From the NCBI RefSeq assembly GCF_014174165.1, contig NZ_JABEQN010000015.1:1-64000 (forward strand): a DNA stretch of 64,000 nucleotides. Reading direction: 5' to 3'. The stretch is from Gluconacetobacter dulcium (GTDB lineage: Bacteria > Pseudomonadota > Alphaproteobacteria > Acetobacterales > Acetobacteraceae). Positions 17,760-30,840 of the stretch are shown here, in pieces; positions within the stretch are counted from its first letter, which is position 1, and every line of letters starts with the position of its first letter. The translations under genes were made by a program, and so were the position numbers. The notes under the pieces are model-generated. The model searched no databases, was not told the DNA's origin, and saw nothing but the letters and a program-made list of their open reading frames with translations.

Positions 17760-17812
17760 GGAGAATGGCGCACCCGAAAGGACTCGAACCTCTAACCCCC
17801 AGATTCGTAGTC
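17760..17812. repeat. attL: 53-bp direct repeat, copy of the 3' half of tRNA-Arg
   Basis: These 53 bp are identical to 30788-30840, which cover the 3' half of the intact tRNA-Arg gene (anticodon loop to CCA) plus 6 bp beyond. The tRNA 5' half is missing here, so this is not a second tRNA gene. This is the standard footprint of a tyrosine integrase that recombines at the anticodon-loop or T-loop region of a tRNA gene. It marks the left end of the mobile element. Confidence 0.92.
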
Positions 17813-17940
17813 ACAAGGGCAGAATTGGCAGTAAGATGCAAACAGCCGCAAAGACACGAAATAACAACATGTTAAACAGTGCGTTGGATGAGGGGTTCAC
17901 GCAACGAGGCGCAACGAATCGCAGGGATTACGATTCCAGA

Positions 17941-17961
17941 TGAGTCCGGAAAGAGTCCGGA
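17941..17961 (+). promoter_or_regulatory. putative integrase arm-type sites, left end
   Basis: TGAGTCCGGA at 17941-17950 and AGAGTCCGGA at 17952-17961 are direct repeats 11 bp apart. The same decamer occurs twice with the same 11-bp spacing near the other end of the element (30716 and 30727). Paired sites beside both att cores are the arrangement expected for the N-terminal arm-binding domain of the integrase. Function is inferred. Confidence 0.55.
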
Positions 17962-18029
17962 GAATCGACCCGATAGCCCGCCTAACAGGGTGACGGTGGG
18001 CTGGCGCATTCATTGGGAAACACTTTTGT

Positions 18030-18140
18030 AGGTGTAAAGGTGTAAGAGGTGTAACACACATATATTATATACTGTTTTTATTCACTTTTTCCCTCCCCAG
18101 CCAATTACACCTTTCGGTTTTCGAGGTGTAACAGGTGTAA
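18030..18140. repeat. iteron array 1: AGGTGTAA repeats
   Basis: Six exact copies of AGGTGTAA: forward at 18030-18037, 18038-18045, 18047-18054, 18124-18131 and 18133-18140, and reverse (TTACACCT) at 18105-18112. Neighbouring copies are 8 or 9 bp apart. A 50-bp AT-rich stretch (18055-18100) separates the two groups. The array lies just upstream of the integrase start. Together with the matching array near the right end it resembles the ori/crr pair of P4-type satellites, where iterons bind the replication initiator. A role as integrase-promoter operator is the alternative. Confidence 0.7.
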
Positions 18141-18153
18141 TCGAGACCGCCGG

Positions 18154-19476
18154 ATGAAGCTCACAAAACGGGAAATAGACGCCCTGGCCTGCCCGCCGGG
18201 TAAGCGCGACGCCATGTTCATGGACGATTCGCTGCCGGGTTTCGCGATCCGCGTGACCGAGGCCGGGTCCAAGGTCTTCCTGTTCCAGTATCGCTTCGCC
18301 GGCCGCATCCGGCGCCTGGTCATCGGCCCTTATGGCGAGGTCACGCCTGCCCAGGCACGTAAGGAGGCCGAGGAAGCGCGCGGCCGGGTGCGGGCCGGTG
18401 GCGATCCAGCCGGGGAAAGAAAGGTCCGCGCCCTGGCCGCTCAGGCCGAGATGGCCCGCCAGAAGGCGGAAGAAACTGCCGATGCCCTGACGCTGGATGC
18501 ACTGATAGACCGCTGGCGTGACGGGGCATTGAGGGACCGGAGCGCGTCCTATCGCAAGGAAGCCCCGGATCGGCTCCGCACCGGCGTCCCTGCCCTTCTA
18601 GGCCAGCCCGCACGGTCAATCACACCAGGCGAGGTCCAAGCCCGTCTGGACGAGGTAGCGGCGCAGCACCCGGTCACGGCCCGCCGGATTCATGCCTATG
18701 GCCGGGCCATGTTCGGCTGGGCCGAGAAACGGCAGTTCGTACCCGCCAACGTGTTCGCCAGCGTGATCGTGGAAGGTCGGGAGACCTCGCGCGACCGCGT
18801 GCTGACAGATACCGAGTTGGCCGAGTTGTGGAACGCCGCCGGCCGCCAGCCATACCCCTTTGGCCCGTTCTTCCGGCTACTGGCCCTGACGCTGCAACGG
18901 CGGGACGAGGTGGCGCACATGGAATGGGCCGAGTTGGCCCCGGACCTGACCTCCTGGCTGATCCCGGCCGACCGGACCAAGAACGGCCGGGCGCATATCG
19001 TCCACCTGGCCGAGCCTGCCCGTCACATCCTTGCCGGCCTGCCACGCCAAGCCGACCCGAAGACCGGCGCACTGTCGCCCTACGTCTTTACCAGCAACGG
19101 ACGAACCCCGATTTCAGGCTTTTCCGACGCCAAGGAACGGCTTGACGCCCTGATAGCCGACATGCGGACGGAACAGGCGGGAAAGAAGGTCAGAAAGCCA
19201 GCAGCCCCACCGCCAAGGGCAGACTGGCGGCTGCACGACCTGCGGAGAACGGGCGTAACGATCATGGCGCGGCTGGGGATCGGCCCGCATGTCGCAGACC
19301 GGGTTCTGAACCATGTGCAAGGCACGATCCGGGGCGTGGCTGCGGTCTACCAGCGCCATGAATTCGAGGCCGAGCGGGCGGCGGCGCTCGATACCTGGGG
19401 CCGTCATGTTCAGGCTGTGGCGGCAGGCCACGCAGACCGCCAGCAGGCCGGCGATGTTGTAACGCTGCGGCCGTAA
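18154..19476 (+). CDS. int: P4-type tyrosine integrase
   Basis: This 440-residue site-specific recombinase integrates and excises the element at tRNA-Arg. The N-terminus (MKLTKREIDALACPPGKRDAMFMDD...GFAIRVTEAGSKVF) is the DUF4102 arm-binding domain typical of P4 and island integrases. A core-binding domain covers about 110-210. The catalytic residues can be placed: Arg249 in TLQRRDEV, His361 and Arg364 in RLHDLRRTGVT, His387 in LNHVQG and nucleophile Tyr399 in AVYQRHEF. All are present, so the enzyme should be active. The ATG follows iteron array 1 by 13 bp, suggesting that whatever binds the iterons also controls integrase expression. Confidence 0.95.
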   Translation: MKLTKREIDALACPPGKRDAMFMDDSLPGFAIRVTEAGSKVFLFQYRFAGRIRRLVIGPYGEVTPAQARKEAEEARGRVRAGGDPAGERKVRALAAQAEMARQKAEETADALTLDALIDRWRDGALRDRSASYRKEAPDRLRTGVPALLGQPARSITPGEVQARLDEVAAQHPVTARRIHAYGRAMFGWAEKRQFVPANVFASVIVEGRETSRDRVLTDTELAELWNAAGRQPYPFGPFFRLLALTLQRRDEVAHMEWAELAPDLTSWLIPADRTKNGRAHIVHLAEPARHILAGLPRQADPKTGALSPYVFTSNGRTPISGFSDAKERLDALIADMRTEQAGKKVRKPAAPPPRADWRLHDLRRTGVTIMARLGIGPHVADRVLNHVQGTIRGVAAVYQRHEFEAERAAALDTWGRHVQAVAAGHADRQQAGDVVTLRP

Positions 19477-19596
19477 GGGTGATTTGCATTTCGAGGGCAC
19501 TATGTGCGTGATATAGGCGGCGCATCGCTGGATTGGGACGCGATAGGGGCTACCCAGCCCGTCCTTGGTCCGTATAGCCCGCCCACGGGAGAGTTT

Positions 19597-20286
19597 ATGC
19601 CGGACGGAAGCAACATCATCGGACGGGGCATCTACCCGGTGCCTGTGGCTGCCAGGCTGCTTCATATGCCGGCGGCACGGGTACGGGCATGGGTATATGG
19701 CAACGGGTCAGAGGCCGTTCTGACGCCCGAACTGGCGACCGAGGACGGACAGGAAGCCCTCAGCTTCATTAACCTGGTCGAAATCCTGTTCCTCGCCGAG
19801 CTGCGTGGGCAAGGGGTCAGCCTGCAATCCATTCGAACCATGCTGGACCGGGCCAAACGGATGCTGGGCACGGAACATCCTTTCGCGGTCCGCCGGTTCC
19901 ATACGGACGGCAAGGCGATCTGGCTGGAAACGGCCGAAGCCACGGGGGATCGGCGGCTTGTGGACCTGACGGACGGCAATGGTGCCATGTTGCAGGTGCT
20001 CGAACGAAGCTTCCGCAAGTCCGTGTCCTTCGACGACACCACCGCCGGCATTGCCAATCTGTGGCGCCCCAGCGCCGATCAGCCCCGCATCGTGCTGGAC
20101 CCGGCGCGACGCTTCGGCCGGCCGATCGACAGCCAGACCGGCATGCCCACCGAGATTCTGGCCAATGCCCTGCGCGCGGAAGGCGGCAACGTGGCGCGCG
20201 TGGCCGCCTTGTGGGAGGTTCCGCCCGAAGCCGTCGAACAGGCGGCTGAATTCGAGATGCGGATCAGCAAGCGACTGGCGGCTTGA
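19597..20286 (+). CDS. putative antitoxin with MerR/DUF433-like DNA-binding region
   Basis: A 229-residue protein paired with a downstream PIN-like gene. Residues about 10-110 (YPVPVAARLLHMPAARVRAWVYG ... INLVEILFLAELRGQGVSLQSIRTMLDRA) resemble the winged-helix of MerR-like/DUF433 antitoxins. The C-terminal NALRAEGGNVARVAALWEVPPEAVEQAAEFE is a second helix-turn-helix-like segment common in DUF433 proteins. The ATG at 19597 has GGGAGAG upstream; a start at 19504 lacks one. The stop overlaps the next gene's TTG start by four bases, the tight coupling usual for toxin-antitoxin operons. The pairing with DUF5615-type PIN-like toxins is known; activity here is inferred. Confidence 0.65.
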   Translation: MPDGSNIIGRGIYPVPVAARLLHMPAARVRAWVYGNGSEAVLTPELATEDGQEALSFINLVEILFLAELRGQGVSLQSIRTMLDRAKRMLGTEHPFAVRRFHTDGKAIWLETAEATGDRRLVDLTDGNGAMLQVLERSFRKSVSFDDTTAGIANLWRPSADQPRIVLDPARRFGRPIDSQTGMPTEILANALRAEGGNVARVAALWEVPPEAVEQAAEFEMRISKRLAA

Positions 20287-20696
20287 AATTCATCTTCGAT
20301 GAAAACCACCCGCCGATCCTTGCACGGGTGCTGGCTCCGCTGGCCGGAATAGACAGCCATACGGTGGCATCTGTCCGTCATCTCGGCCTTGCCGGCACGA
20401 AGGACGTGGACCTATTCCATGCTCTGGCCGACCCCAACCGCCCTACGGTCCTGATCACGGCCGACATGGCCATGTCACGTCGTCGGCACGAAGTCGCGGC
20501 GATCCGGGAAACCGGGGCGGTGGTCGTAGTGGGCATGAAGGGCTGGAACCAGCAGAAGGACACGGTGGAGCGCGTCCGCATGATGGTCTGGTGGTGGCCA
20601 AGCATCGTCCGATGCGCGGCCGGGGCGGATAGTGGATCGTTTCTGGAACTGCCTTGGTCCAGCGCAGTAGCAACGCTTAAGCGGTGGCGAGCCTGA
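20283..20696 (+). CDS. PIN-like (DUF5615-type) putative toxin
   Basis: A 137-residue protein. KFIFDENHPPILARVLAPL at the N-terminus has the DEN motif of DUF5615/Mut7-C-like PIN-fold proteins, and PTVLITADMAMSRRRHEVAAI supplies the second acidic residue (TAD) of the presumed nuclease site. Such proteins are predicted RNA-cleaving toxins. The C-terminal 45 residues are less typical. Translation begins at TTG 20283, overlapping the antitoxin stop by four bases, so it is probably made only by coupled translation. Confidence in the fold is moderate and in toxicity low. Confidence 0.6.
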   Translation: MKFIFDENHPPILARVLAPLAGIDSHTVASVRHLGLAGTKDVDLFHALADPNRPTVLITADMAMSRRRHEVAAIRETGAVVVVGMKGWNQQKDTVERVRMMVWWWPSIVRCAAGADSGSFLELPWSSAVATLKRWRA

Positions 20697-20766
20697 AAGG
20701 CGTCGTCGCAATGGAGGCCCCTAAGCCTGTATAATGCAGGTGCAGGGGTGAAACCATGAGGCCACG

Positions 20767-21039
20767 ATGACAAGCTATATCGCCTTGATCCGAAAGGACC
20801 CCGACACCGATTTCTGCGTTGATTTCCCCGACTTTCCCGGCTGCATCAGCGCTGGCCTCACGATGGAAGAGGCTCGCGTCATGGCAGCGGAGGCACTGGC
20901 CGGGCATATCGCAAACATGAAGGAAGATGGCGACACTATCCCCGATCCATCTCCCTTGGATGTGGCCATGGCCAATCCAGACAATGCCGGCGCCACGCCA
21001 GTCCTGGTCCGCGCGGGCCTCCGGACCTTGCGGATATAA
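20767..21039 (+). CDS. HicB-type antitoxin, orphan
   Basis: A 90-residue protein with the HicB partial RNase H fold: YIALIRKDPDTDFCVDFPDFPGCISAGLTMEEARVMAAEAL is the family signature, followed by the usual EDGDTIPDPSP segment. HicB neutralises the small mRNA interferase HicA. The ~60-residue HicA that normally lies next to it is absent: 20697-20766 is too short and the next 50 bp downstream have no frame for it. It is either a solitary regulator or a leftover. GC content matches the integrase side of the element, and it ends right before the AT-rich block. Confidence 0.82.
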   Translation: MTSYIALIRKDPDTDFCVDFPDFPGCISAGLTMEEARVMAAEALAGHIANMKEDGDTIPDPSPLDVAMANPDNAGATPVLVRAGLRTLRI

Positions 21040-21086
21040 AAAAGGGCAGACTTGCCCCGATTCATTCTGAAATGCTCCAGAAATAT

Positions 21087-21524
21087 TTATTTTTGATTAA
21101 CCCCACACCTCAACTCTATATATGTATACACATCTATATCACCAATCTTAATTCCATGCGGAGAAACAAGATCATTAGAAAGGACCATAGACCGAATAGT
21201 AATTGGTCCTTTTATATACCAAGAACCGCCAATCTTCTTCACCTGCTCGCAATCAAAGGGAGGCAACGGAGCCGGAGTCGCAATCTGGCGCTCCAACGCC
21301 GTCTGGCGATGTTGGTTAAGAATACTAGAACCAGCGGAAAATAAAAAATACATACCCAAAAGATAAAATAATGACCTCCAAAAAAAACGAGATCTACTAA
21401 TAACCTTTATCAGAGGAACCCCTTCCTTAAGAGATTTATTAAAGGCCGAAAAAAACTTGAACACGGCCACTGATGACAGGAGGCTCCAGAATAAATCAAC
21501 AAATAACCAAACAGGAAAGGTCAT
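21087..21524 (-). CDS. predicted membrane protein of unknown function, AT-rich cargo gene B
   Basis: A 145-residue protein with two likely membrane spans, about residues 4-27 (PVWLFVDLFWSLLSSVAVFKFF) and 47-66 (FFWRSLFYLLGMYFLFSAGSS), followed by a soluble tail of about 75 residues that carries two cysteines (FDCEQVKK and ELRCGVNQK). No family is recognised. The DNA is clearly AT-richer than the surrounding element, a sign of separate origin. Its start overlaps the stop of the 117-residue gene upstream by four bases (ATGA), so the pair is one translational unit. It may be anti-phage or superinfection-exclusion cargo. That is a guess from context. Confidence 0.55.
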   Translation of the reverse strand: MTFPVWLFVDLFWSLLSSVAVFKFFSAFNKSLKEGVPLIKVISRSRFFWRSLFYLLGMYFLFSAGSSILNQHRQTALERQIATPAPLPPFDCEQVKKIGGSWYIKGPITIRSMVLSNDLVSPHGIKIGDIDVYTYIELRCGVNQK

Positions 21525-21874
21525 GACTTTTTTCCTTTCCGCGAGCTTGCAGAAGAAGGAGAAAAATAAACCATGATTGTACTAGGTCCCGTTACCCCAG
21601 CAGCTATAGCTTGATAAGCAGAGTGTGGAGAATAAATAGCCATTCCTGCAATAGTACCAAAAAAAACCGTCCCCACCATTTCAATCCAAGCGTAAGTCGT
21701 ATCGGATCTTCCTGGCAAAAGAACTCTCATTTTCTCATGCGAAACTGTGAACCCCTTCTGACTTCCACCAAGATACGCACCTACTGCACCAATAAGACAA
21801 AGGGCCCACATAGTGGCAGCAGAGGCGATTCCTGCGGCTGTAACGCTCAAAGCTACTTCCCCACAATGCGGCAT
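21521..21874 (-). CDS. predicted membrane protein of unknown function, AT-rich cargo gene A
   Basis: A 117-residue protein with two hydrophobic stretches, about residues 8-38 (VTAAGIASAATMWALCLIGAVGAYLGG) and 66-103 (MVGTVFFGTIAGMAIYS...AGVTGPSTIMVYF), each able to span the membrane. A serine/lysine tail (SSASSRKGKKS) probably stays in the cytoplasm. The glycine- and alanine-rich helices resemble small phage holin-like proteins, but I see no motif that proves it. No clear ribosome-binding site precedes ATG 21874, so the start is uncertain. It overlaps the downstream gene by four bases. Confidence 0.5.
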   Translation of the reverse strand: MPHCGEVALSVTAAGIASAATMWALCLIGAVGAYLGGSQKGFTVSHEKMRVLLPGRSDTTYAWIEMVGTVFFGTIAGMAIYSPHSAYQAIAAGVTGPSTIMVYFSPSSASSRKGKKS

Positions 21875-22090: not shown

Positions 22091-22372
22091 TTAAACCACC
22101 CAAAAAACAAATTTGTGGTGAACTCGATGATTTCGAACGCACGGCTTAGCTTGATTTGGTATGTCTCCGATTATCATATATGTGAAAATGTGGTTTGGAA
22201 TATTTTTCCTTCCAAATGGAATTGGCATTTTCACTATTTTAGCTGAATAATTGGTCGTTGGAAATCGCGATAAAATATTATAAAAATAGTTATTTGTTTT
22301 CGCATCCGTCATATAATAATTATTTCCATCTAAAACTATCATTCCATTATTTATAAATGTTATAATTCCCAT
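22091..22372 (-). CDS. AT-rich hypothetical protein translated after the Xre repressor
   Basis: A 93-residue protein from strongly AT-rich DNA. It starts MGIITFINNGMIVLDGNNYYMTDAK and is rich in Asn, Ile, Tyr and Phe, with a basic middle (KMPIPFGRKNIPNH). The ATG overlaps the stop codon of the Xre gene (TAATG), so it is likely co-translated with the repressor. No family is recognised. The base composition differs sharply from the repressor gene beside it, so it may have been added later. Confidence 0.45.
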   Translation of the reverse strand: MGIITFINNGMIVLDGNNYYMTDAKTNNYFYNILSRFPTTNYSAKIVKMPIPFGRKNIPNHIFTYMIIGDIPNQAKPCVRNHRVHHKFVFWVV

Positions 22373-22593
22373 TATTTATGCAACCTTATACCCACACTAC
22401 ACCCATTCTCTCCTATGAACTCTACCCCGGCAGCCTCCAAGGCAATGCGAATAGCTTCGATGGTACGGGGATAGAGATCCTCGCCGCGCTCAAGCCGGGT
22501 GATTGTCGTGGGTGACACCTGAGCGGCTAAAGCCAATTCTCGAACGCCTAACTGGAGGGCGGCCCTCGCCATTCGACATTGTGTTGCGTTCAT
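22372..22593 (-). CDS. Xre-family helix-turn-helix repressor
   Basis: A 73-residue Cro/C1-type DNA-binding protein: CRMARAALQLGVRELALAAQVSPTTITRLERGEDLYPRTIEAIRIALEAAGVEF is the complete five-helix HTH_3 domain, with almost nothing added. It faces a divergent operon across a 145-bp region holding two copies of a 17-bp operator, one over its own ribosome-binding site. It is the probable master repressor of the element, comparable to satellite and phage immunity repressors. ATG 22593 with CAGGGTGA upstream is preferred over an ATG at 22641, which would lie upstream of the first operator. Confidence 0.85.
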   Translation of the reverse strand: MNATQCRMARAALQLGVRELALAAQVSPTTITRLERGEDLYPRTIEAIRIALEAAGVEFIGENGCSVGIRLHK

Positions 22594-22594
22594 G

Positions 22595-22672
22595 ATGTCA
22601 CCCTGTGTCAAAGTTATTGACTTCAGGGATGAATCTGGCACATTGAGTGAACCTTGTCACTTTGTGACAAGG
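22595..22672. promoter_or_regulatory. divergent control region with two operators for the Xre repressor
   Basis: TTGTCACTTTGTGACAA at 22654-22670 is the centre of a perfect 9-bp inverted repeat (22652-22672, 3-nt spacer). ATGTCACCCTGTGTCAA at 22595-22611 is a degraded second copy (13 of 17 identical) that covers the repressor's ribosome-binding site. A strong site toward the divergent operon and a weak site over the repressor gene are the usual layout of an autoregulated lysis/lysogeny-type switch. Binding by the adjacent Xre protein is inferred. Confidence 0.7.
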
Positions 22673-22738
22673 CGGCCGAACGGAAGGGGTAGGAGCCTTC
22701 CGGTCCGGCCTGACCACAACCGAACTGGAGTTTCGGCA

Positions 22739-22909
22739 ATGGCTGAACACGCCTATAGCACACCCGCGTCAACGCGAGCAGCGGAGTCACGCGCCCACAT
22801 TCTGGCGGCGCTGATCGCCCCTTTCCTGATCGCCCTGGCCATCTGCGGCCTCGGCACGCCCGATCCCGTCACCAGCGGCCACGCCACCGCCATTGAGGCC
22901 GTGCGATGA
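22739..22909 (+). CDS. small single-span membrane protein, first gene of the divergent operon
   Basis: A 56-residue protein with one hydrophobic helix, about residues 25-41 (ILAALIAPFLIALAICGL), after a polar N-terminus (MAEHAYSTPASTRAAES). ATG 22739 follows CTGGAG. The stop overlaps the next ATG by four bases. This begins a run of five genes coupled by four-base overlaps, all controlled from the Xre operator region. Function unknown. Confidence 0.55.
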   Translation: MAEHAYSTPASTRAAESRAHILAALIAPFLIALAICGLGTPDPVTSGHATAIEAVR

Positions 22910-23190
22910 CCCAGAATGCCCTCTGCACGATGCCGGATCAGAATATCGACAAGATCGCGGTGGCCAGCGACGCCCTGGCTAACCTGGCCACGTTACTGCG
23001 CTGGGCCGGCAGGGCTGCGGAACAGGTCATGATCCTTTCTGCCGGCGATGACCTTCCCGGCCTCGGCAGCACCATGGTCTGGGCCGGTGCCGAGATCGAG
23101 CGCCGCTGCGCCGTCATCTCCGAAAGCATCAGCGATGCCGTGCCCTACAGGCTCGCCACTGCCCCCCGAAAGGCGGAGAGCGCGGTATGA
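22906..23190 (+). CDS. hypothetical protein, element operon gene 2
   Basis: A 94-residue, mostly alpha-helical soluble protein (QNIDKIAVASDALANLATLLRWAGRAAEQVM, then VWAGAEIERRCAVISESISDAV). It shares a general pattern with the next gene, an alternation of alanine-rich helices around a W-A motif, which suggests the two may be related or form a complex. It overlaps both neighbours by four bases. No family recognised. Confidence 0.55.
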   Translation: MTQNALCTMPDQNIDKIAVASDALANLATLLRWAGRAAEQVMILSAGDDLPGLGSTMVWAGAEIERRCAVISESISDAVPYRLATAPRKAESAV

Positions 23191-23432
23191 AGTCCCACAG
23201 AACGCCCGGCCATGATCGTATCATCGTCGTGACCAAAGGCGCCTTGCGTGACGTAAATCTGGCCCTTTCGGGCCTGACGCTCTTGCTGGGGCAGATCGCC
23301 AATACCGAGGCAGGTGCTGACTTCGAAACGGCGATGGACTGGGCAAACGCCCTGCAATGGCTTCGTGATTCCATCGGAGCAGCCATAGCCTCCCCGCAAG
23401 AGGAAATCGCCCGGCAGGAGGCTGGCCAATGA
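23187..23432 (+). CDS. hypothetical protein, element operon gene 3
   Basis: An 81-residue helical protein (LRDVNLALSGLTLLLGQIANTEAGADFETAMDWANALQWLRDSIGAAIA). The arrangement of helices and a WANALQWL motif echo the preceding 94-residue protein. Translationally coupled to both neighbours by ATGA overlaps. No family recognised. Confidence 0.55.
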   Translation: MKSHRTPGHDRIIVVTKGALRDVNLALSGLTLLLGQIANTEAGADFETAMDWANALQWLRDSIGAAIASPQEEIARQEAGQ

Positions 23433-23848
23433 GCCGTACCAGCCCCACCCTCTCCCGCCGCACGGCCCTTACCGGCGGCTTGGCCCTTGGCACCACCGCA
23501 ACGGCATCCTGTGCCCCTCACGTGGTGGCTGATGATGCCGACCTGCTGCGCCGGGTCGATGCTGCACTGTCCGCCCATGCTGCCTTCACGGCATTGGCCA
23601 AGCGGTGGGGCGATACCGTCCGCATTCCAGGGGCCGTGATAGCTGAGGAAGCCCGCCTGTTGGATCTGGTGAACGATCTGCGGTTAGCGGCCATGGAACT
23701 GCCAGCGCGCACGACGGCGGGGCTGCAAGCCAAGGCAAGACTGGTCCTCACCGCGCTGGACCTGAACGCCGATGGCACAATCCGTCCGGATCAAGACGAT
23801 TTCGAAGCCTGGTCGCTCTGCCGCGATCTGATCGGTGGCGCCGCATGA
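23429..23848 (+). CDS. hypothetical exported protein with twin-arginine-like signal
   Basis: A 139-residue protein whose N-terminus (MSRTSPTLSRRTALTGGLALGTTATASCA) has an SRRTAL twin-arginine motif, a hydrophobic stretch and a lipobox-like ending TASC. It could be exported by Tat and lipidated. The mature part is helical (DLLRRVDAALSAHAAFTALAKRWGD...AEEARLLDLVNDLRLAAMELPA) and resembles small phage or satellite proteins of unknown role. An exported folded protein in a satellite early operon is unusual. Coupled to the next gene by ATGA. Confidence 0.55.
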   Translation: MSRTSPTLSRRTALTGGLALGTTATASCAPHVVADDADLLRRVDAALSAHAAFTALAKRWGDTVRIPGAVIAEEARLLDLVNDLRLAAMELPARTTAGLQAKARLVLTALDLNADGTIRPDQDDFEAWSLCRDLIGGAA

Positions 23849-25038
23849 TCGGCCTCAGCCATATCACCCCGCCGAAAAGCTTGCCTGTTCCTGTTTCGTG
23901 CCAGATGATGCAGGGAGGCGCGGCTAGGTTTGGCCGCCGAACGCCTGGTCCCCATGACTGGCCCGCCGCGCCGTCTGTTCTCAATCATGGGGATGACCAG
24001 CGTGGGGCGGTTGTGTGGGAAATGTATACCCTGCCTTCTACCGAAGACAGGCTCCAGAATGGCATCAGGCTTTCCGATACTTTCCATGCGTTCGCCTTTC
24101 TGGATGACTGGATCGAGAATCATTTTAACGGCATGAGTCAGGCCATGTGCCAATGCATAGCTTCCGGCATGCCTGAACAAGCCTTTGATCATCCCGAAAA
24201 CGCTAAACATTTTATCTCAGCGACGGATCTTCCTTCGATTTACCTACGAAATTTCCACCATCATTATTATTCAATATACAAAGAAATAGAGTCTTTACTG
24301 AAAAGCGGGCGGTTGTCCGCTTATGGGAAAACATCCATAGAAGATAAACATTGGAAAGTTATTCGCTGTTCTGACCTGTCTCTGGACTGCGAGCTTTTGT
24401 TCAGCAAAAACAAAATAGTAATAGAAGGCCAAAGCTTTCTCGACGTGCGTGTTGTCTGCGCGGAGTCCTTGCCCATCTCATGCGCACTTATCGCATACGG
24501 AGACCAAGAATTGGTGCCTCGATTAATGCGGCTTGCCGGATATTGCCGTTCTACCCTCACCAAAGGTGCTTACAAAGCATATTTACTTGATGAAATTCGA
24601 ACATTCTTAAAGTATTTTTTATTATTAATGCAGAAAGGACACCTTGAAGCATTCCGCACTGATGACGGCATGGAAATAGACGCTTCTGTTTGGAATCATT
24701 GCAAAATTTCTCTTTCTAGATCGGAGATTTCTACCAGACCAGGGGAATGGCTTCCTGTAAAAATCGTTAGCCCCATCCCTCCTTTGGAAGGCAACACATC
24801 GGCAAATAACTCCCACAGTAAAGGCCATCTGGTCGGCAGTGGCCGTTGCGCCCGAGGTTATGAGGAAGCAGATGCGCCGCTGGTGGAAGAAATGCGGACG
24901 ATGATCGTCCACAAGAAAGCGCATAGCGCCTGGCACGCCGCTGAGCTAGTGGCCGATCGTGCTGAGGGCGGGGGCACTTTTGAGAGCAGACAGAAGCGCC
25001 TCCATGGCAAATATCAAAGATTAAACCCAGATCAGTAG
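23845..25038 (+). CDS. hypothetical protein, mosaic base composition
   Basis: A 397-residue reading frame that starts by ATGA overlap with the preceding gene. Codons for residues 1-60 are GC-rich like the upstream operon. The middle (about 75-320) is AT-rich with ordinary soluble-protein composition (ICSDLSLDCELLFSKNKIVIEG, YGDQELVPRLMRLAGYCRS). The last 60 residues (ADAPLVEEMRTMIVHKKAHSAWHAAELVADRAEGGGTFESRQKRLHGKY) are GC-rich again and resemble the C-terminal block seen in many alphaproteobacterial phage and satellite proteins. It looks like a gene whose central domain was exchanged. An in-frame ATG at 24022 is an alternative start. Function unknown. Confidence 0.6.
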   Translation: MIGLSHITPPKSLPVPVSCQMMQGGAARFGRRTPGPHDWPAAPSVLNHGDDQRGAVVWEMYTLPSTEDRLQNGIRLSDTFHAFAFLDDWIENHFNGMSQAMCQCIASGMPEQAFDHPENAKHFISATDLPSIYLRNFHHHYYSIYKEIESLLKSGRLSAYGKTSIEDKHWKVIRCSDLSLDCELLFSKNKIVIEGQSFLDVRVVCAESLPISCALIAYGDQELVPRLMRLAGYCRSTLTKGAYKAYLLDEIRTFLKYFLLLMQKGHLEAFRTDDGMEIDASVWNHCKISLSRSEISTRPGEWLPVKIVSPIPPLEGNTSANNSHSKGHLVGSGRCARGYEEADAPLVEEMRTMIVHKKAHSAWHAAELVADRAEGGGTFESRQKRLHGKYQRLNPDQ

Positions 25039-25042
25039 CCCG

Positions 25043-25094: not shown

Positions 25095-25175
25095 TTCATT
25101 TCCGCCTTTACCCATGTCTTACGCACTGGGCCGCAACATCCTGCGGCGGCGTGCTGCATAGACAGGGAGAACCTT

Positions 25176-25454
25176 ATGCACCGCGTGAAAACACGCAACA
25201 GACCGACTCTGCCCACCGCCCCGGCGATGCCCACACCTCCGCTGGTGGTTTCTGAACCCGAAGCCGCCCGCCTAGTCGGACTGGGTATCCGCACGATGCA
25301 GCAGCTTCGTGCCGATGGCGCAGGCCCGCCGTTCGTGAAGCTGACCAGCCGCCGCATCGGTTACAGCATGGCCGGTCTTCAGGACTGGATCGCCTCGCGC
25401 TCAGCCCGCTCCACTTCCGACATCACCATGCGCCAGATCGGCGGTGCGGCATGA
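25176..25454 (+). CDS. AlpA-like helix-turn-helix regulator/excisionase
   Basis: A 92-residue protein. PPLVVSEPEAARLVGLGIRTMQQLRADGAGPPFVKLTSRRIGYSMAGLQDWIASR is the short winged-helix of AlpA/HTH_17 proteins, with the recognition helix around GIRTMQQLRADG and the wing RRIGYS. AlpA-type proteins act as transcription activators and excisionases in P4-like satellites and islands. ATG 25176 follows AGGGAGA. The stop overlaps the next ATG by four bases, placing it at the head of the replication operon. Confidence 0.8.
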   Translation: MHRVKTRNRPTLPTAPAMPTPPLVVSEPEAARLVGLGIRTMQQLRADGAGPPFVKLTSRRIGYSMAGLQDWIASRSARSTSDITMRQIGGAA

Positions 25455-26011
25455 CCGATCTTCTCGCCACCGCCGGCTTGAGCCTGCGCCACATGGCGCT
25501 CCTCGGCCTACTGCATCCCGTCGATAATGAGGCATGGAGCGCCGATGAACGCGCCACCTTCCGGTCGGCGGCCAAAGAGGTTTGGGAGGCGGATGCCCCG
25601 TTTACGGTCGTTTCCTGCCCGCATCTGGCGAAGGCGCGGGAAATCGTCAACGCGCACGATGCAGGCTGGTGGCCCGAACTGATCGTTCCCGCAGGCTTGG
25701 ACCGGATGAGCCGGCTTCGCGGGATCGACCTGACGGTGCCGGCCCTCTGGGGCGCGGTATGGTTGGGTGCCATGCTTGCCGCCGTGCCCGACACGCCCGC
25801 GAGGGACTGGGCAAATGAGGCGATTGATTACTTCTACGGCATCGCGAGCGAGCGCCTTGAAGAACTGCGAGGAGCCAGCATCCGAGGATTGTCGGCGGAA
25901 AACTCCGAAGAACTGGATAGCGCTCTTCGCAATGTTCGCGAGGCCCTGCCGAGGGTCGCACCGATCTGGGTATTCGGCCCCTTGTATGATCCGGGCTATG
26001 CGGAGACCTGA
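25451..26011 (+). CDS. hypothetical protein of the replication operon
   Basis: A 186-residue protein between the AlpA-like and primase-like genes and overlapping both. It includes LSLRHMALLGLLHPVDNEAWSADERATFRSAAKEVWEADAPFTVVSCPHLAKAREIVNAH and a central WGAVWLGAMLAAVPD helix. No known domain is recognised. Its fixed place in the operon suggests a role in element replication or copy control. That is inferred only from position. Confidence 0.6.
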   Translation: MTDLLATAGLSLRHMALLGLLHPVDNEAWSADERATFRSAAKEVWEADAPFTVVSCPHLAKAREIVNAHDAGWWPELIVPAGLDRMSRLRGIDLTVPALWGAVWLGAMLAAVPDTPARDWANEAIDYFYGIASERLEELRGASIRGLSAENSEELDSALRNVREALPRVAPIWVFGPLYDPGYAET

Positions 26012-27065
26012 CGCGGCAACGCTGGCGCAGCTTCTGGCCGAGCGGGTTCAACCCCTCGTGCTGGAGCTGCTGCCGCATGGCCACCGCGAGGGTGCGGAAT
26101 GGCGCTGCGGCAGTCTGGCCGGTGACCGGGGGCAGTCCCTAGCCGTGCGTCTGACCGGACCGCGCCGGGGCGTATGGGCCGATTTCAGTTCGGGCGAACG
26201 CGGGGACGCGCTCGATCTGGTGGCGGCGGTCATGTTCGGCGGCAATCGGCGGGACGCCATGGCTTGGGCTCGCACCTGGCTGGGGCTGGATGACAGTCCA
26301 GTTCCGGCGATTGCCCGGCGGGCGGTGGCGACCAAAGCCACCACCGCCGAGCAAGACCACGACGACCAGCGCCGGCGGGCCAAGGCCCGACAGCTTTGGC
26401 ATAGCGCCCCCGCCGGTATCGCCGGCACACCGGTCGAAGCCTATCTGCTCGGGCGAGGGATCGACCTGCGCGAGATGGGCCGCCAGCCGGGCAGCCTGCG
26501 CTTTCATCCCGGCACCTGGTGTGGCGAGGTCGGGCGACCCCTGCCGGCGATGCTGGCCGCGATCTGCGGGCCGTCCGGCAAGCTGGTGGCCGTGCATCGC
26601 ACCTGGCTGGCCTCGGCCCCTGACGGTGGGTGGACAAAGGCCGATCTGCGGGCACCCAGGAAGGCGCTGGGTTCATTTGCCGGCGGCGCCGTCCGCCTGT
26701 GGCGCGGCGCTTCGGGCAAGAACCTGAGCATGGCCGAACCGGGCGAAAGCGTCATCGTCGCGGAGGGGATCGAAACCGGCCTGTCCGTGGCGTTGGCGTG
26801 TCCAGAACGCCGCGTTCTGTGTGCCGTCAGCCTGTCGAACATGAGCCGTCTGGAACTGCCAGACGCGATCAGCGACGTGACGATCTGCGCCGACAATGAC
26901 GGTGACAATCCGGCGGCAGCCAAGGCGCTGCAAGCCGCCTGCGCATGGTTCGGCCGTCATGGCCATACCGTCCGCCTCGCCAAACCTTCAATGCCTAACT
27001 CGGACTTTAATGATGTCCTGAGGATGAACGAGCATGAGCAAGAAACCGACCGGCACGGGCCGTAA
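25998..27065 (+). CDS. Toprim-domain primase-like protein
   Basis: A 355-residue protein of the type found in phage and satellite primases (DUF7146/Toprim_3). The N-terminal ~100 residues (EWRCGSLAGDRGQSLAVRLTGPRRGVWADFSSGERGDALDLVA) look like the zinc-free remnant of a primase N-domain. The C-terminal Toprim fold has VIVAEGIETGLSVALA (catalytic Glu near 256) and VTICADNDGDN (acidic residues near 299-303). It would make primers for the element's DNA. An ATG at 25986 would add four residues. It overlaps the upstream gene by 14 bp and the helicase gene by 32 bp, so the three are one operon. Confidence 0.82.
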   Translation: MRRPDAATLAQLLAERVQPLVLELLPHGHREGAEWRCGSLAGDRGQSLAVRLTGPRRGVWADFSSGERGDALDLVAAVMFGGNRRDAMAWARTWLGLDDSPVPAIARRAVATKATTAEQDHDDQRRRAKARQLWHSAPAGIAGTPVEAYLLGRGIDLREMGRQPGSLRFHPGTWCGEVGRPLPAMLAAICGPSGKLVAVHRTWLASAPDGGWTKADLRAPRKALGSFAGGAVRLWRGASGKNLSMAEPGESVIVAEGIETGLSVALACPERRVLCAVSLSNMSRLELPDAISDVTICADNDGDNPAAAKALQAACAWFGRHGHTVRLAKPSMPNSDFNDVLRMNEHEQETDRHGP

Positions 27066-28956
27066 GGGCGTCCGACAGGCCGTCGAGTCCGCCGAGGTCG
27101 TGGCCTTCCCCAGCGCTGGTGCCAACGTCGAACAGGGTCAGAGCCGCCCACCGCCAGGCGTCTCCCGCCGCTTCAACCGAGACGAAAGCGGCCTATGGCG
27201 GCGCCCGACCGATGATGGCGCGTCCCCACTCTTCATTGCCGGCCCCATCGACCTGCTGGCCGAGACGCGCGACGCCGAGGGCAATGGCTGGGGCCTCCTG
27301 CTAGGCTGGACCGACCGTGATGGCGTCCGCCATGAGGAAGCCTTTCCTCGCGCCATGTTTTCGGGCGAGGCTGGCGAATTGCGCAGCCGTCTGGCCAATG
27401 GCGGCTTGACACTGGCCGCCTCGGCCGCCGCGAAGAACGCCTTCACCGAATGGCTGGCCCTGATCGCCACCGAGGAACGGGCACGTAGCGTCACCCGGAT
27501 CGGCTGGCACGCCTTCGGCAGCGGCAGCGTGTATGTGCTGCCCAGCGCCACATTCGGCATGGCCGACGAACGGGTGGTGCTGCAACAGGAAACGCCGGAG
27601 CCCGACCTGTTCGGTGTCAGCGGCACGGTTGAAGAGTGGCGGAACCGGATCGGCGCGCTATGCCGTGGCAATAGCCGCCTGGTCTTGTCCGCCTCGGCCG
27701 CCTTCGCCGCGCCCCTGCTGACCCTGATGGGCGAAGATGGCGGTGGCTTCTCGCTGATGGGGGCCAGCCGCCTGGGCAAGTCCACCGCTCTGCGGGTGGC
27801 AGCCTCTGTCTGCGGCGGCACGATGCAGGCCGGTGCCGAGGGCTATGTGCGGAGCTGGCGCGCCACCGGCAATGCCCTTGAAAGCGTGGCGCTGGCAGCC
27901 TGCGACGGGCTGCTGTGCCTGGATGAACTGGGCCAACTTGATCCGCGCGAGGCTGGCGACACCGCCTATATGCTGAGCAACGGCGCCGGCAAGGCACGGG
28001 CCAGCCGCACCGGCGGCGCGCGGGCCGTGACCAGGTGGAAGATTTTGTTCCTCTCGACCGGCGAACGGACGCTGGCGGACATGAATGCGGAAGCCGGTCG
28101 GGCGACCAAGGCCGGGCAAGAAGTTAGGTTTGTCGATATCCCGGCCGATGCTGGCGCCGGGTCCGGTTTATTCGAGCGACTGCATCACGCCGATGCACCG
28201 GGCGATCTGGCCGAGCACCTACGCGCCGAGACGGGGCAGCTATACGGTGCGCCGTTCCGGGCATTCCTCACTCGGCTGACACAAAGGCTGGCCACGGAAA
28301 GCGAACAGGCGGTGCGCGATGCCTTGCGGGCGCGTGTGATCGAACTGACGGACCATTACCTGCGGAACTGGCCCCAGGCATCCGGGCAGGTGCGGTCTGT
28401 CGCCCGACGCTTCGCCATCGTCGCCCTGGGCGGCGAATTGGCCACCGGCTTCGGCCTGACAGGCTGGGACGATGACACAGCATCCGAACTGGTGAAGCTG
28501 TGCTTCGACGCCTGGCTGACGGCACGCGGAACCGCCGGCCGGCGTGAAGACGAACAGGCCGTCGAACAGCTACGCGATTTCCTGTCCCGCAACGGCGAAG
28601 GACGGTTTGAACGGTGGGTTGATCCGCAAGCCACCGACACCCCGCAAAGTGGCGATCCGTCCGAACCGCCGGGCGAACGCTTCCGGACTCAGAACCGCGC
28701 GGGCTGGAAGCGGTGGCAGAAACAGGATGACGGCCGGATGGGCTGGACCTTCTACCTTAGCAGCGCCGGCATGAATGAAGCCCTGTCCGGCCTGAACGGA
28801 CGCGAGGCGAAACGGGTGCTGGTGGATCGCGGCTTTCTGGTGCCGGCTGCGGACGGCAAGATGGCCAAAGTCGTCAGCCCGCCGGGTTTCAAGGCCGTGC
28901 GCGCCTATGAGGTGCGACCCGTCATTCTTGGGTCTGATGCGGGCGATACAGGCTGA
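27034..28956 (+). CDS. DUF927 helicase-like ATPase (satellite replication protein)
   Basis: A 640-residue protein of the DUF927/COG5519 family, which includes the Cch helicases of staphylococcal cassettes and helicase modules of phage satellites. After an N-terminal ~200 residues, Walker A GASRLGKSTAL (about 243-253) and Walker B GLLCLDELGQLD (about 292-303) are visible, followed by ILFLSTGERTL as sensor region. The C-terminal ~110 residues (RFRTQNRAGWKRW...MNEALSGLNGREAKRVLVDRGFL) look like a DNA-binding winged helix that could recognise the iterons. Together with the Toprim protein it provides the functions fused in P4 alpha. It is the best candidate initiator for the AGGTGTAA repeats. Confidence 0.85.
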   Translation: MSKKPTGTGRKGVRQAVESAEVVAFPSAGANVEQGQSRPPPGVSRRFNRDESGLWRRPTDDGASPLFIAGPIDLLAETRDAEGNGWGLLLGWTDRDGVRHEEAFPRAMFSGEAGELRSRLANGGLTLAASAAAKNAFTEWLALIATEERARSVTRIGWHAFGSGSVYVLPSATFGMADERVVLQQETPEPDLFGVSGTVEEWRNRIGALCRGNSRLVLSASAAFAAPLLTLMGEDGGGFSLMGASRLGKSTALRVAASVCGGTMQAGAEGYVRSWRATGNALESVALAACDGLLCLDELGQLDPREAGDTAYMLSNGAGKARASRTGGARAVTRWKILFLSTGERTLADMNAEAGRATKAGQEVRFVDIPADAGAGSGLFERLHHADAPGDLAEHLRAETGQLYGAPFRAFLTRLTQRLATESEQAVRDALRARVIELTDHYLRNWPQASGQVRSVARRFAIVALGGELATGFGLTGWDDDTASELVKLCFDAWLTARGTAGRREDEQAVEQLRDFLSRNGEGRFERWVDPQATDTPQSGDPSEPPGERFRTQNRAGWKRWQKQDDGRMGWTFYLSSAGMNEALSGLNGREAKRVLVDRGFLVPAADGKMAKVVSPPGFKAVRAYEVRPVILGSDAGDTG

Positions 28957-28965
28957 AAGTGCGTT

Positions 28966-29151: not shown

Positions 29152-29319
29152 CTCGGTTGCCCCCCTGTGTCGGCCTTGCGCATGCTTCCCCGCCTACCCG
29201 TACACTGCGGATGCTGGAACCAAAACGTGCAGGCGACATCCGGCCGGGCGGATGACGACAAGGCATGGGTCGTTGCCTTCAACGCCCCTCCGACAGACCT
29301 ATGCACCCGGTACATGGCT

Positions 29320-29466
29320 TGGAACTGTTCCATTAGGGCAAGCCCTATTGGAACAATCGGCCTGGAACAGTTTTGGAACAGAAAACTGTTCCAAAAGGGT
29401 TGTTTTCAGACTTCTGGAACGATAAGGGTTTAGAGTCTAGACCTTTTGGAACAGTTTGGAACCCGG
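29320..29466. promoter_or_regulatory. TGGAAC repeat cluster upstream of the resolvase, putative res site
   Basis: About seven TGGAAC/GTTCCA motifs lie in 150 bp directly before the resolvase gene. They include TGGAAC-T-GTTCCA at 29320-29332 and a perfect 11-bp inverted repeat TTTTGGAACAG/CTGTTCCAAAA with a 4-nt spacer at 29371-29396, plus copies near 29349, 29363, 29414, 29446 and 29455. Resolvases bind multi-site res regions placed beside their own gene and regulate themselves there. The cluster fits such a site. Confidence 0.6.
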
Positions 29467-29468
29467 AA

Positions 29469-30044
29469 ATGAAGATCGGATACGCCCGCACCAGCACCGC
29501 CGAACAGACTGCCGGCCTTGATGCTCAGGCCCGTGACCTGCGCGCGGCCGGGTGCGAGCGGGTCTATGCCGAACAGGTCAGCGGGTCACTGACCGATCGC
29601 CCCCAGCTTTCCGCCGCACTGGATCAGCTTCGACCCGGCGACGTGCTGGTGGTGACGAAGCCAGACCGCCTGGCTCGGTCCACGGCCGACCTGCTGGCTC
29701 ATGTCGAAACGGTGAAGGCCAAGGGCTGCGGCCTGATCGTGCTATCCATGAACGGCATAGTGCTGGATACCACCAGTCCCACCAGCAAGCTGATGCTGAC
29801 GATGCTGGCCGCCGTGGCCGAGTTCGAGCGCGATATCATGAAGGAACGGCAGGCCGAAGGGATCGCCAAGGCAAGGGCCGAGGGCAAGTATCTGGGCCGC
29901 AAGCCGACAGCACGCGACCAGGCTGCCGAGGTGCGGGCGCTGGCGGCGCAAGGAATCGGTGGCACCGAGATTGCCCGGCGTCTCAGCATCGGCCGCACGT
30001 CCGTCTATCGCTGCCTGGCAGAGGCCGCGTCCGGAGTGGCGTGA
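29469..30044 (+). CDS. serine recombinase (resolvase/invertase family)
   Basis: A 191-residue small serine recombinase. MKIGYARTSTAEQTAGLDAQ contains the nucleophilic Ser9; VLVVTKPDRLARSTADLL holds the catalytic arginines, and EFERDIMKERQAEGIAKARAEGKYLGRKP the E-helix and linker. A C-terminal helix-turn-helix (IGGTEIARRLSIGRTSVYRCL) binds DNA. It would resolve element multimers or invert/excise a segment. Presence alongside a tyrosine integrase suggests dimer resolution of a circular replicating form. ATG 29469 begins the conserved domain; upstream in-frame sequence is the repeat cluster. Confidence 0.9.
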   Translation: MKIGYARTSTAEQTAGLDAQARDLRAAGCERVYAEQVSGSLTDRPQLSAALDQLRPGDVLVVTKPDRLARSTADLLAHVETVKAKGCGLIVLSMNGIVLDTTSPTSKLMLTMLAAVAEFERDIMKERQAEGIAKARAEGKYLGRKPTARDQAAEVRALAAQGIGGTEIARRLSIGRTSVYRCLAEAASGVA

Positions 30045-30181
30045 ACCTCGCGAAGCCTGCCCGGTGCGCGCGGGCAGCGCGGTGGTTTTCTTCCCGTTTT
30101 TGTGACCGTCTCCGACCCATCATCGCCCAAAGCCATGATGTAAACGCATAACTTCACCGCGATGAAATGGCGCCGAAATCC

Positions 30182-30190
30182 TGTGGATAA
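30182..30190 (-). promoter_or_regulatory. DnaA box
   Basis: TGTGGATAA is the complement of the consensus DnaA box TTATCCACA with no mismatch. It lies 65 bp from iteron array 2 inside a non-coding stretch, the position expected in an origin that uses both host DnaA and an element-encoded initiator. A single 9-mer can occur by chance, so the context carries most of the weight. Confidence 0.5.
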
Positions 30191-30255
30191 CTGACGCTCG
30201 GATGAAGCCAAAAAGAGGAAATCGGCAGAAAACTGCCATTCGACCGGTCGCGGAG

Positions 30256-30367
30256 TTACACCTATCTACACCTTTCAGAATGCCAAAAAGCCAAAGGTGT
30301 AATCTAAATAACAATGTTATTTCAGTAACTTATGGACGAATTTACACCTTCTACACCTGTTACACCT
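30256..30367. repeat. iteron array 2, mirror image of array 1
   Basis: Six copies of the same octamer: TTACACCT (reverse) at 30256-30263, 30342-30349 and 30360-30367, CTACACCT (reverse, one mismatch) at 30266-30273 and 30351-30358, and AGGTGTAA (forward) at 30295-30302. An AT-rich stretch (30303-30341) separates the two groups. Array 1 has five forward and one reverse copy; this one has five reverse and one forward, so the two are inverted relative to one another. The region is the best candidate origin of replication. Confidence 0.7.
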
Positions 30368-30465
30368 TTTTTCTAAGAGGGTGGAAGAAAGGGAGGCAAA
30401 AAGATGAGGTGAGCATCCGCGATCATCATGCATAAAACGCATACCTCGCGCGGGCATGGATCGAA

Positions 30466-30673
30466 GGGGGGGGAGGTCAAATCTTGATCCGCCCTTCGGG
30501 GGGCCAACCGCACCAGGCTCACGCGCAGATTTTTTGGGCCGCGTTTGAAAACAATCAAAGCAATCAAACAGCAGAGCCGAAAGGATGAGCATGGCGGTGG
30601 GGGGTGTTCGATCTCTAGCCGCCCCTGGGGGCCGGACCGCGCCAAGGGCAAATTTCTGCACCCGCGAAATTGC
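30466..30673. repeat. duplicated G-run motif resembling a phage cos region
   Basis: Two degenerate ~75-bp copies start with runs of G (30466-30473 and 30596-30604). They continue with TC-n-n-ATCT, CCGCCC, a second G-run, ACCGC-n-CCA, and an A/T-rich tract ending in GCGC-like sequence. This composition and order resemble cos sites of HK97-type phages. A satellite could use such a site to be packaged by a helper. The resemblance is from memory of such phages and needs a direct comparison. Confidence 0.4.
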
Positions 30674-30715
30674 AGGAAAAAGCTACGCCTGATCCTGCTG
30701 GCATGGTGTTTCGAA

Positions 30716-30736
30716 TGAGTCCGGATTGAGTCCGGA
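30716..30736 (+). promoter_or_regulatory. putative integrase arm-type sites, right end
   Basis: TGAGTCCGGA occurs at 30716-30725 and again at 30727-30736, the same decamer and 11-bp spacing as at 17941 near the left end. It lies 52 bp inside the right att repeat. Confidence 0.55.
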
Positions 30737-30787
30737 GACGCGAACAGACCGAGCGGCCAGAACCGTCAATTTCGAAAAATTGTAGAT

Positions 30788-30840
30788 GGAGAATGGCGCA
30801 CCCGAAAGGACTCGAACCTCTAACCCCCAGATTCGTAGTC
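30788..30840. repeat. attR: 53-bp direct repeat within tRNA-Arg
   Basis: Identical to 17760-17812. It comprises the tRNA-Arg 3' half from the anticodon loop through CCA plus 6 bp. The element supplied this copy on integration, so the tRNA gene stays functional. Confidence 0.92.

Follow-up and report, generated by a model that had tools for sequence, protein, structure and literature searches.

How does an element travel that carries genes for integration and replication, and in whose 20 open reading frames (ORFs) Pfam finds no terminase, capsid, portal or relaxase, and no tail protein either? The question is posed by a 13,028 bp element spanning positions 17760-30840 of a 64,000-nucleotide stretch of Gluconacetobacter dulcium DNA (contig NZ_JABEQN010000015.1, positions 1 to 64,000; hereafter the window), where it lies at a tRNA-Arg(ACG) gene between perfect 53-bp direct repeats. 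A sequence-only reading had recognised these repeats and the lack of structural and conjugation genes, both of which are confirmed here, and had guessed from the gene order that the element is a phage satellite. We now give a probability of about 0.85 to the reading that it is an integrated, cos-packaged phage satellite, similar in its workings to phage-inducible chromosomal islands (PICIs) and to P4. Its sequence makes packaging into phage particles the very probable means of travel. What was a guess from gene order is now based on packaging sites shared with phages in all 14 complete members of its family, on the comparison of occupied and empty attachment (att) sites, and on the absence of terminase, capsid, portal and relaxase matches.

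Insertion and probable packaging sites

The features at the two ends of the element are the following (the binding protein of the arm-type motifs is presumed).
17760..17812, no strand: attL, a 53-bp copy of the tRNA-Arg 3′ end plus 6 bp; perfect direct repeat, and junction of the empty site in five sister genomes
17942..17961, plus strand: left doubled arm-type motif, GAGTCCGGA-n2-GAGTCCGGA, from a pattern count
18030..18140, no strand: left iteron cluster, six AGGTGTA around an A+T-rich stretch, from a pattern count; putative origin
30256..30367, no strand: right iteron cluster, six AGGTGTA, from a pattern count
30461..30568, plus strand: cos-like packaging site 1 (c1), 88% identical over 63 bp to locus L251 and 86% to L252, in both just upstream of the terminase genes terS and TerL
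30591..30690, plus strand: cos-like site 2 (c2), by similarity a divergent tandem copy of c1, present in four satellites
30717..30736, plus strand: right doubled arm-type motif, from a pattern count
30788..30840, no strand: attR, the perfect repeat partner, inside tRNA-Arg(acg)

The only tRNA gene detected in the window is tRNA-Arg(acg), at 30794-30870 on the minus strand, and the right copy of the repeat corresponds to its 3′ end plus 6 bp. The integrase gene is located at the opposite end of the element, distant from the tRNA gene, which corrects the earlier account. An empty tRNA-Arg site, which the sequence-only reading proposed to look for, was found in five of 13 other Gluconacetobacter genomes, where the two flanks run on into each other and share 49-53 bp at the att core. 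Because both flanks adjoin and overlap in this way, the element is a clean insertion; a repeat or intervening genes conserved in element-free strains, the alternative raised earlier, are not seen at the tRNA-Arg site. The site is occupied by a 12.8-kb relative in Gluconacetobacter liquefaciens (genome G006), and in the remaining seven genomes of the genus the flanks do not align beside the tRNA gene, which makes the comparison uninformative there. Genome G011 appears to hold a different element of ~16.5 kb at the tRNA-Arg site. Between 17000 and 33000 of the window, the GC skew shifts from mostly negative to mostly positive, with a cumulative minimum at ~25-26 kb that may be a replication landmark close to the insertion.

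The doubled arm-type motif occurs twice in the window, once at each end of the element, ~87 and ~166 bp from the att centre (0 of 100 shuffles reached two matches). In the relatives, a pattern with one variant base places it at both ends in nine of 14 elements, at one end in three and at neither in two.

A conserved non-coding block lies between the right iterons and the right arm motif of the elements. Motifs of this block retrieve viral contigs from IMG/VR, and in the contigs checked, which are only part of those bearing a motif, the block immediately precedes terminase genes; some hits to a single motif resemble coding sequence or chance matches. Type A is found before a Nu1-like terS and a gpA terminase in viral contigs L171 and L178. 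Type B1 is found just before a Terminase_4 terS in L185 (Pfam), and by sequence the same layout occurs in L221, L223 and L224, 12-13 nt past the motif; in L222 a further ORF lies 23 nt past it. Profiles of the two types (cosA and cosB1), built from viral contigs only, give a single match in each of 18 of the 32 element sequences examined, always with E ≤ 5e-6 (cosA in 15, cosB1 in 3). These matches fall mostly between the right iterons and the arm motif, the one in KE0001 being further right and L100 having no identified iterons. The cosA site also stands before the gpA terminase in two of four gpA-carrying Gluconacetobacter prophage loci, none of which was a profile seed.

The window contains c1 and c2, whose mutual similarity was equalled in none of 2000 shuffles, and c1 is similar to one group of viral type-B sites, to a degree that none of 1000 shuffles reached. 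When positions 30455-30705 were compared by BLAST with 397 genomes of the bacterial family, 34 gave a match at E ≤ 0.01. Apart from the window and G. liquefaciens, the matches with E < 1e-4 come from seven stretches, L251-L257; twelve weaker hits (E > 1e-4), compared with c2 only, look like coding or chance matches. In L251 and L252, three genes follow c1: a small gene resembling terS (phrog_15261 and, weakly, phrog_641), one for the large terminase subunit, called by Pfam, and one for a portal, called by Pfam and PHROGs in L251 and by similarity only in L252. L252 continues with matches to a major head protein, a head-tail adaptor, a minor tail protein and an endolysin, and is therefore a tailed prophage. 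The idea that the phages carrying c1 are merely capsid-forming islands was thus ruled out for L252 by its tail and endolysin genes; the L251 contig ends before a tail region would be visible. L252 (G379:C12) also encodes, on the minus strand at ~13067-14086, a Toprim protein 48% identical to that of the window; replication genes may thus pass between helper-type phages and satellites.

The genome that holds this c1 prophage, G379, also holds the satellite L255, which, like L256, belongs to the close family and has both c1 and c2. In L253 (G359) and L254 (G284), c1 is beside D5_N/DUF5906 primases, and Pfam detects a capsid, a prohead protease and a portal in L253 as well. These two look like capsid-forming PICIs (cfPICIs) of acetic acid bacteria that share a packaging site and regulators with the family of the window; relatives of xre, o105 and o139 (see below) are present in L253. 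The c1-region match in L257 adjoins another DUF927/AlpA element. The c1-c2 region is 98% identical over 251 bp in G. liquefaciens, and c2 is 80% identical in G379; elsewhere, c2 has two short, weak matches, in G029 and G164 (E 0.003 and 0.005). Searched as patterns, c1 and c2 retrieved no viral contigs, and the c1 pattern with up to three mismatches matched the window alone among 299 genomes.

In total, a phage-matching site is present in each of the 14 complete members (type A in eight, B1 in two, c1 with c2 in four). Type A differs from the others in both sequence and terminase, and B1 and c1 may be distantly related.

Genes and relatives of the element

The remaining features, apart from a region described in the next section, are listed from left to right.
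18154..19476, plus strand: tyrosine integrase, intact, 440 aa (PF13356, Arm-DNA-bind_3; PF00589, Phage_integrase; phrog_1)
19504..20286, plus strand: MerR/DUF433-like protein, probable antitoxin, cargo (weak PF21321, PF13411, PF04255)
20283..20696, plus strand: PIN-domain protein, probable toxin, cargo (PF18478, PIN_10, E 4.2e-18)
20767..21039, plus strand: HicB-like antitoxin, cargo (PF15919, E 4.4e-20)
21087..21524, minus strand: hypothetical protein, cargo; ORF without family match
21521..21874, minus strand: hypothetical protein, cargo; ORF with nothing above the curated cut-off
22372..22641, minus strand: Xre-type repressor, divergent from the early genes (HTH_31 and HTH_3 just under cut-offs; phrog_3, repressor)
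22592..23848, plus strand: four small early ORFs, o105, o94, o81 and o139, their order partly kept in relatives; start of o105 uncertain
25176..25454, plus strand: AlpA-like excisionase/regulator (HTH_17 E 2.6e-4; Phage_AlpA 0.053; phrog_66 E 1.4e-8)
25451..26011, plus strand: o186, conserved protein of unknown function, in seven relatives at 27-56% identity to the window copy; no family match
25998..27065, plus strand: DUF7146 + Toprim_3 primase-like protein, presumed start (PF23639, PF13362; phrog_510, DNA primase)
27034..28956, plus strand: DUF927 helicase-like replication protein (PF06048 E 4.6e-82; phrog_1139)
29320..29455, no strand: five copies of TGGAACAG upstream of the resolvase, from pattern positions; possible resolution site or operator
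29469..30044, plus strand: serine resolvase/invertase (PF00239, PF02796; phrog_125)

Pfam and PHROGs agree with the earlier assignments of a complete integrase and of Toprim, DUF927 and resolvase genes, the primase-like and helicase-like proteins being separate. The proposed Xre switch keeps its helix-turn-helix type and its repressor match in PHROGs, and the AlpA-like regulator its match to phrog_66 (‘excisionase and transcriptional regulator’); neither reaches its Pfam cut-off. Several of the early genes, most of which had matched nothing in the sequence-only reading, are probable toxin-antitoxin cargo: judging by sequence, the MerR/DUF433-like and PIN proteins would form a pair, with the HicB-like antitoxin beside them. 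The former two genes are also adjacent in two Gluconobacter elements. Among the small ORFs, o94 matches phrog_31590, a family of unknown function. A defence search of 10 window proteins with PADLOC gave no match. A GGAACAG cluster similar to the TGGAACAG group is found in G. liquefaciens (L034).

The search for elements with the same DUF927/Toprim/AlpA order, suggested by the sequence-only reading, yielded 14 complete elements, with alpA in 13. Of 147 genomes searched, 31 encode a DUF927 relative, among them the source genome, and an att pair is present in 16 of 16 loci checked, 14 of which (with the window) constitute the close family, of 7,366 to 18,221 bp. Its members are found at tRNA-Arg (the window element and G. 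liquefaciens), tRNA-Ala (G. aggeris, G. sacchari and Acetobacteraceae KSS8), tRNA-Thr (G. tumulisoli and Acetobacter estunensis) and tRNA-Lys (five Gluconobacter, G379 and G337). In most of them the genes run int, variable cargo, xre, small genes, alpA, Toprim, DUF927 and usually resolvase. By tblastn, all 14 have int, Toprim and DUF927, 13 have xre and alpA, the exception being the smallest, in G. tumulisoli, and 10 have the resolvase. A tRNA gene lies within 4 kb after DUF927 in 25 of the 32 element sequences, on the minus strand in all 25; some of the 32 come from the same genome, and the seven without a tRNA at that range are partly limited by the length of the stretch.

The cargo of 13 relatives was sampled through 86 of 100 listed ORFs of at least 100 aa (216 in all, 126 not matching window genes, 107 after dereplication), which were chosen by length, so that some frames may be wrong. 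They match 23 Pfam families, with four Bro-N, three KilAC antirepressor, two RhuM and two Mrr matches, single Abi_C, PemK, PIN and other families, and one S49 peptidase; terminase, capsid, portal and relaxase are absent from these matches. At least two of the 86 match tape-measure families in PHROGs (best 25 of 77 families), and two or three match RmrA and candidate families in PADLOC (best 25 of 72 families).

Some further elements were noted around the family. A sister group with a longer DUF927 protein of 843-845 aa (G011:C1:2771327-2787980, G012:C3 near 3683139, G006:C4 near 70429) has different integrases, yet similar Xre, o105 or o94 genes; its G011 member is the one that apparently uses the tRNA-Arg site. 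The source genome encodes a second DUF927 protein, 30% identical, in an open frame of 1008 aa (L041, G000:C9:71398-73125), which may belong to another element. Acetobacter estunensis AV380 apparently holds two closely similar satellite copies on one contig (L082 and L092, G454:C82:116538 and 421888), and the KSS8 satellite (L038) contains a DUF3800-VIII RNA at 13802-13872 (57.4 bits), near a DUF3800-like ORF.

The AGGTGTA iterons are restricted to the element ends: the 64 kb contain 12 copies, six in each ~110-bp cluster and none outside, against 1.24 expected (0 of 100 shuffles reached 12). Relatives have clusters in equivalent places, of the types GGTGTAA, GGTGTTC or GGTGTTA, and all 14 complete elements have at least two copies of their own type at each end. 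For these 14 of the 16 att-paired elements, two distant ones being excluded, the iteron type matches that of the nearest neighbour by DUF927 in 14 of 14 cases and by integrase in 12 of 14. Label shuffles ignore kinship, as do the covariation shuffles used for the RNA below, and pairs of elements are therefore the telling cases. The G. aggeris and G. sacchari elements both use tRNA-Ala and their integrases are 86% identical, yet their DUF927 proteins are only 63% identical and their iterons differ; conversely, the elements of G. sacchari and G. tumulisoli have the same iterons and DUF927 proteins that are 93% identical, with integrases 54% identical and different tRNAs.

The packaging site also parts company with the replicon. 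The window and G. aggeris elements are 92% identical in DUF927 and 89% in Toprim, with 76% in the integrase and 51% in AlpA, and carry different tRNAs and cos types. This decoupling between close relatives suggests, as far as sequences can tell, cos swapping that would change the helper. We tentatively extend this to a distinct satellite family built of exchangeable cassettes (integrase with att, Toprim-DUF927 with iterons, and cos), which might switch helpers by cos swapping, some members having two cos sites for two helper types, and which might be silenced by the int-alpA RNA as a CI/C4-type antisense RNA acting on two leader boxes.

A candidate int-alpA RNA and its boxes

The region between o139 and alpA contains three features.
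23917..23986, plus strand: int-alpA RNA (Rfam RF02996, divergent; 30.7 bits, E 0.0045), loop CCCCATG at 23950-23956
23986..24007, plus strand: boxes complementary to the RNA loop at 23986-23992 and 24001-24007, from loop-box covariation; the second at the ribosome-binding position before GTG 24013
24013..25038, plus strand: early gene beneath the boxes, with a presumed GTG start at 24013; in the alignment, very variable between relatives

The window RNA scores under the RF02996 gathering threshold of 35.8 bits, and among 15 relative loci scanned, one, L256, passes it (40.0 bits). The block lies within an ORF called at 23845 and is kept in 13 sequences, the window and 12 relatives, which are mostly unrelated beyond the boxes. 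The ORF is probably mis-started, its conserved 5′ part looking like an RNA element; a conserved N-terminal protein domain was considered and rejected, as the conservation tracks the RNA block and stops at the boxes.

Twenty sequences, including distant DUF927 elements, were gathered with a conserved-core pattern, so that conservation of the core is not independent evidence, whereas loop-box pairing is. In the outer stem, 98.8% of cells are paired and four of the eight pairs show changes on both sides; the stem with its inner hairpin beats all 500 shuffles and every slid version. In 19 of the 20 sequences the loop has two complementary boxes downstream, and in L256 it has one, with six different loop heptamers. 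Pairing in the two box helices extends to 78.6% and 84.9% of cells, and in each helix four of seven pairs have changed on both sides; five sequences (L131, L138, L153, L124 and L132) are poorly aligned there, and the whole-structure controls for these helices include the strong outer stem. When loops and boxes were swapped among eight of the 20 sequences, 49 of 40,320 permutations were as good as the own combinations by Watson-Crick run, and 982 of 40,320 by duplex energy, a weaker measure. The five poorly aligned sequences are the DUF927 elements of Celeribacter, Paracoccus, Defluviimonas and uncultured Rhodobacterales, in which the RNA core is also found; the RNA thus extends beyond acetic acid bacteria, and their other loop sequences match their own boxes.

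The nearest known way of working is that of the P4 CI RNA, which, in the available text of PMC4825925, pairs with seqA and seqC, leading to early transcription termination. Both are small RNAs with two complementary sequences; the sites of CI are upstream and downstream of it, whereas here both are downstream, one at the ribosome-binding position (PMC4825925, in part). The int-alpA RNA appears among the small RNAs in the portion of PMC12370729 available, and our literature search found no account of complementary boxes or of an antisense role for it. The RNA family gains from this a concrete, testable hypothesis; if repression through the boxes is correct, a function would be assigned to a family for which we found none described.

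Proposed life cycle, alternative readings and known systems

These features can be arranged into a proposed life cycle. The Xre repressor and the int-alpA-type antisense RNA would silence the early operon, and induction would presumably come from a helper phage, whether infecting or itself induced. The element would then be excised by AlpA and the integrase at the tRNA-Arg core through the doubled arm sites, and the Toprim and DUF927 proteins, the latter probably binding the iterons, would replicate the circle from the iteron clusters flanking attP. The resolvase may sort multimers. Finally, the terminase of the helper would cut at the cos-like site or sites beside the right iterons, c1 or c2, and pack the DNA into helper particles for transfer.

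Several results weigh against this reading. The helper search in the source genome found a prophage region (L213) without a similar cos site, and no gpA terminase. No DUF927 relative was found in 104 candidate IMG/VR stretches, and DNA searches of named phages with the element (50,697 records by megablast) and with short cos pieces gave nothing or noise. The phage-only profiles match neither the window nor G. liquefaciens nor 12 distant elements, the match of the window c1 to phages having come from the later BLAST. The resemblance of c2 to viral sites is not significant (84 and 75 of 1000 shuffles as good), and no phage counterpart of this site, present in four satellites, was found. No gene for capsid remodelling or resizing or for redirecting the terminase was recognised in the window element, and both AlpA and Xre are below Pfam cut-offs.

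In the L213 prophage region (G000:C3:127000-146900), genes for terminase, portal, capsid, baseplate and tail are recognisable from the sequence, and the small terminase subunit is of the Terminase_4 type. A phrog_2 terminase match (G000:C25:57656-58678 and equivalents) recurs in 13 of 14 genomes of the genus, often once, in open frames that are alike, of ~494-611 aa, and is possibly a gene transfer agent. Expressing element length as a share of the helper genome worked for some members only, and the idea was dropped.

The lack of a matching helper in the source genome would be accounted for if the element were a satellite now inert in this strain, its helper lost. We judge this very unlikely, because the core frames are open, the c1-c2 region is nearly unchanged in G. 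liquefaciens and c2 well kept in G379, and a virulent helper would leave no prophage. A plasmid-like or mobilizable element that integrates, replicates itself and moves by conjugation or co-integration, with the cos-like sites as passengers, is a further possibility that we consider improbable. The resolvase hints at plasmid-type multimer resolution, resolvases of this kind being common on plasmids, and DUF927 relatives are found on plasmids too (63 records, none reaching 60% identity; 54 are typed as non-mobilizable and nine as conjugative). However, no relaxase or transfer family of Pfam is matched in the 20 window and 86 relative ORFs (oriT was not searched for), and a passenger would not explain why a phage-matching site is found near the right end of 14 of 14 elements despite changes of type.

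The slightest chance is given to a decayed or deleted prophage that retained integration, replication and cos, a possibility raised in the sequence-only reading, with which our results fit poorly. Its size and replication genes are compatible with such a remnant, as are the tape-measure matches of at least two of the 86 relative proteins and the Toprim relative in prophage L252. The ends are nevertheless precise and the site is found empty; the core genes are open, with their order kept where DUF927 proteins are 58-92% alike; the named phage records gave no megablast match; and int points inward with alpA and the primase, a satellite arrangement in the available text of PMC10111431. A cos-packaged satellite remains the reading that we prefer. 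If it is correct, acetic acid bacteria, which are industrial and plant-associated, gain a phage-satellite family with candidate helper types, since the cos sequence suggests which terminase should pack. A switch of helper through exchanged cassettes can be tested directly, on close backbones that differ in cos type.

The earlier description, which had raised the possibility of an undescribed family, did not include the iterons, arm motifs, cos sites or the RNA. The literature searches found no work joining acetic acid bacteria, prophage and satellite, and none with acetic-acid-bacterium and satellite terms among the matches listed; ‘undescribed’ is only as good as these searches. By the features tested, the element is not P4, PICMI or cfPICI. 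With P4-like satellites (PMC8628076, in part) it has in common a similar size, primase/helicase replication and, by analogy, antisense-RNA immunity.

P4 itself has iterons, an ori/crr pair and a tRNA site. Pfam gives no match to psu, delta, epsilon or alpha (PF07455, PF04606, PF10554, PF03288) in the 20 window ORFs, Sid not having been searched for, and a literature search for the published P4 iteron sequence returned nothing related among the matches listed. PICMIs are also minimal int-alpA-primase satellites without capsid remodelling, defined, in the text of PMC10803314 available, by a fis site and DUF3987/DUF5906 primases; the window element is instead at tRNA-Arg and has other primase families. 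Unlike cfPICIs, it has no capsid, portal or protease match of its own, and unlike integrative conjugative or mobilizable elements, neither it nor the 86 relative ORFs have a relaxase or conjugation match in Pfam.

The Gram-negative and helper-embedded PICIs, as far as covered by the available parts of PMC6092414 and PMC10111431, have the same core of int, AlpA and primase, and in the window element these three genes have one orientation, as in a Gram-negative PICI. In helper-embedded PICIs a doubled, co-oriented motif also flanks attP, 81 and 132 bp from its centre (PMC10111431), close to the ~87 and ~166 bp observed here. PICIs use cos-mediated packaging, and the two cos sites of EcCICFT073 can be likened to c1 and c2 (PMC6092414, PMC10111431). 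Bro-N genes occur in some relatives of the window element, in L032 apparently between alpA and Toprim, and the cargo of the relatives agrees with the zones that PMC10111431 outlines for Gram-negative PICIs (integration, Bro, replication and late). The element differs from PICIs in its Xre repressor, its split Toprim and DUF927 proteins, its iterons at both ends, its int-alpA RNA, its tRNA sites and its acetic-acid-bacterial hosts.

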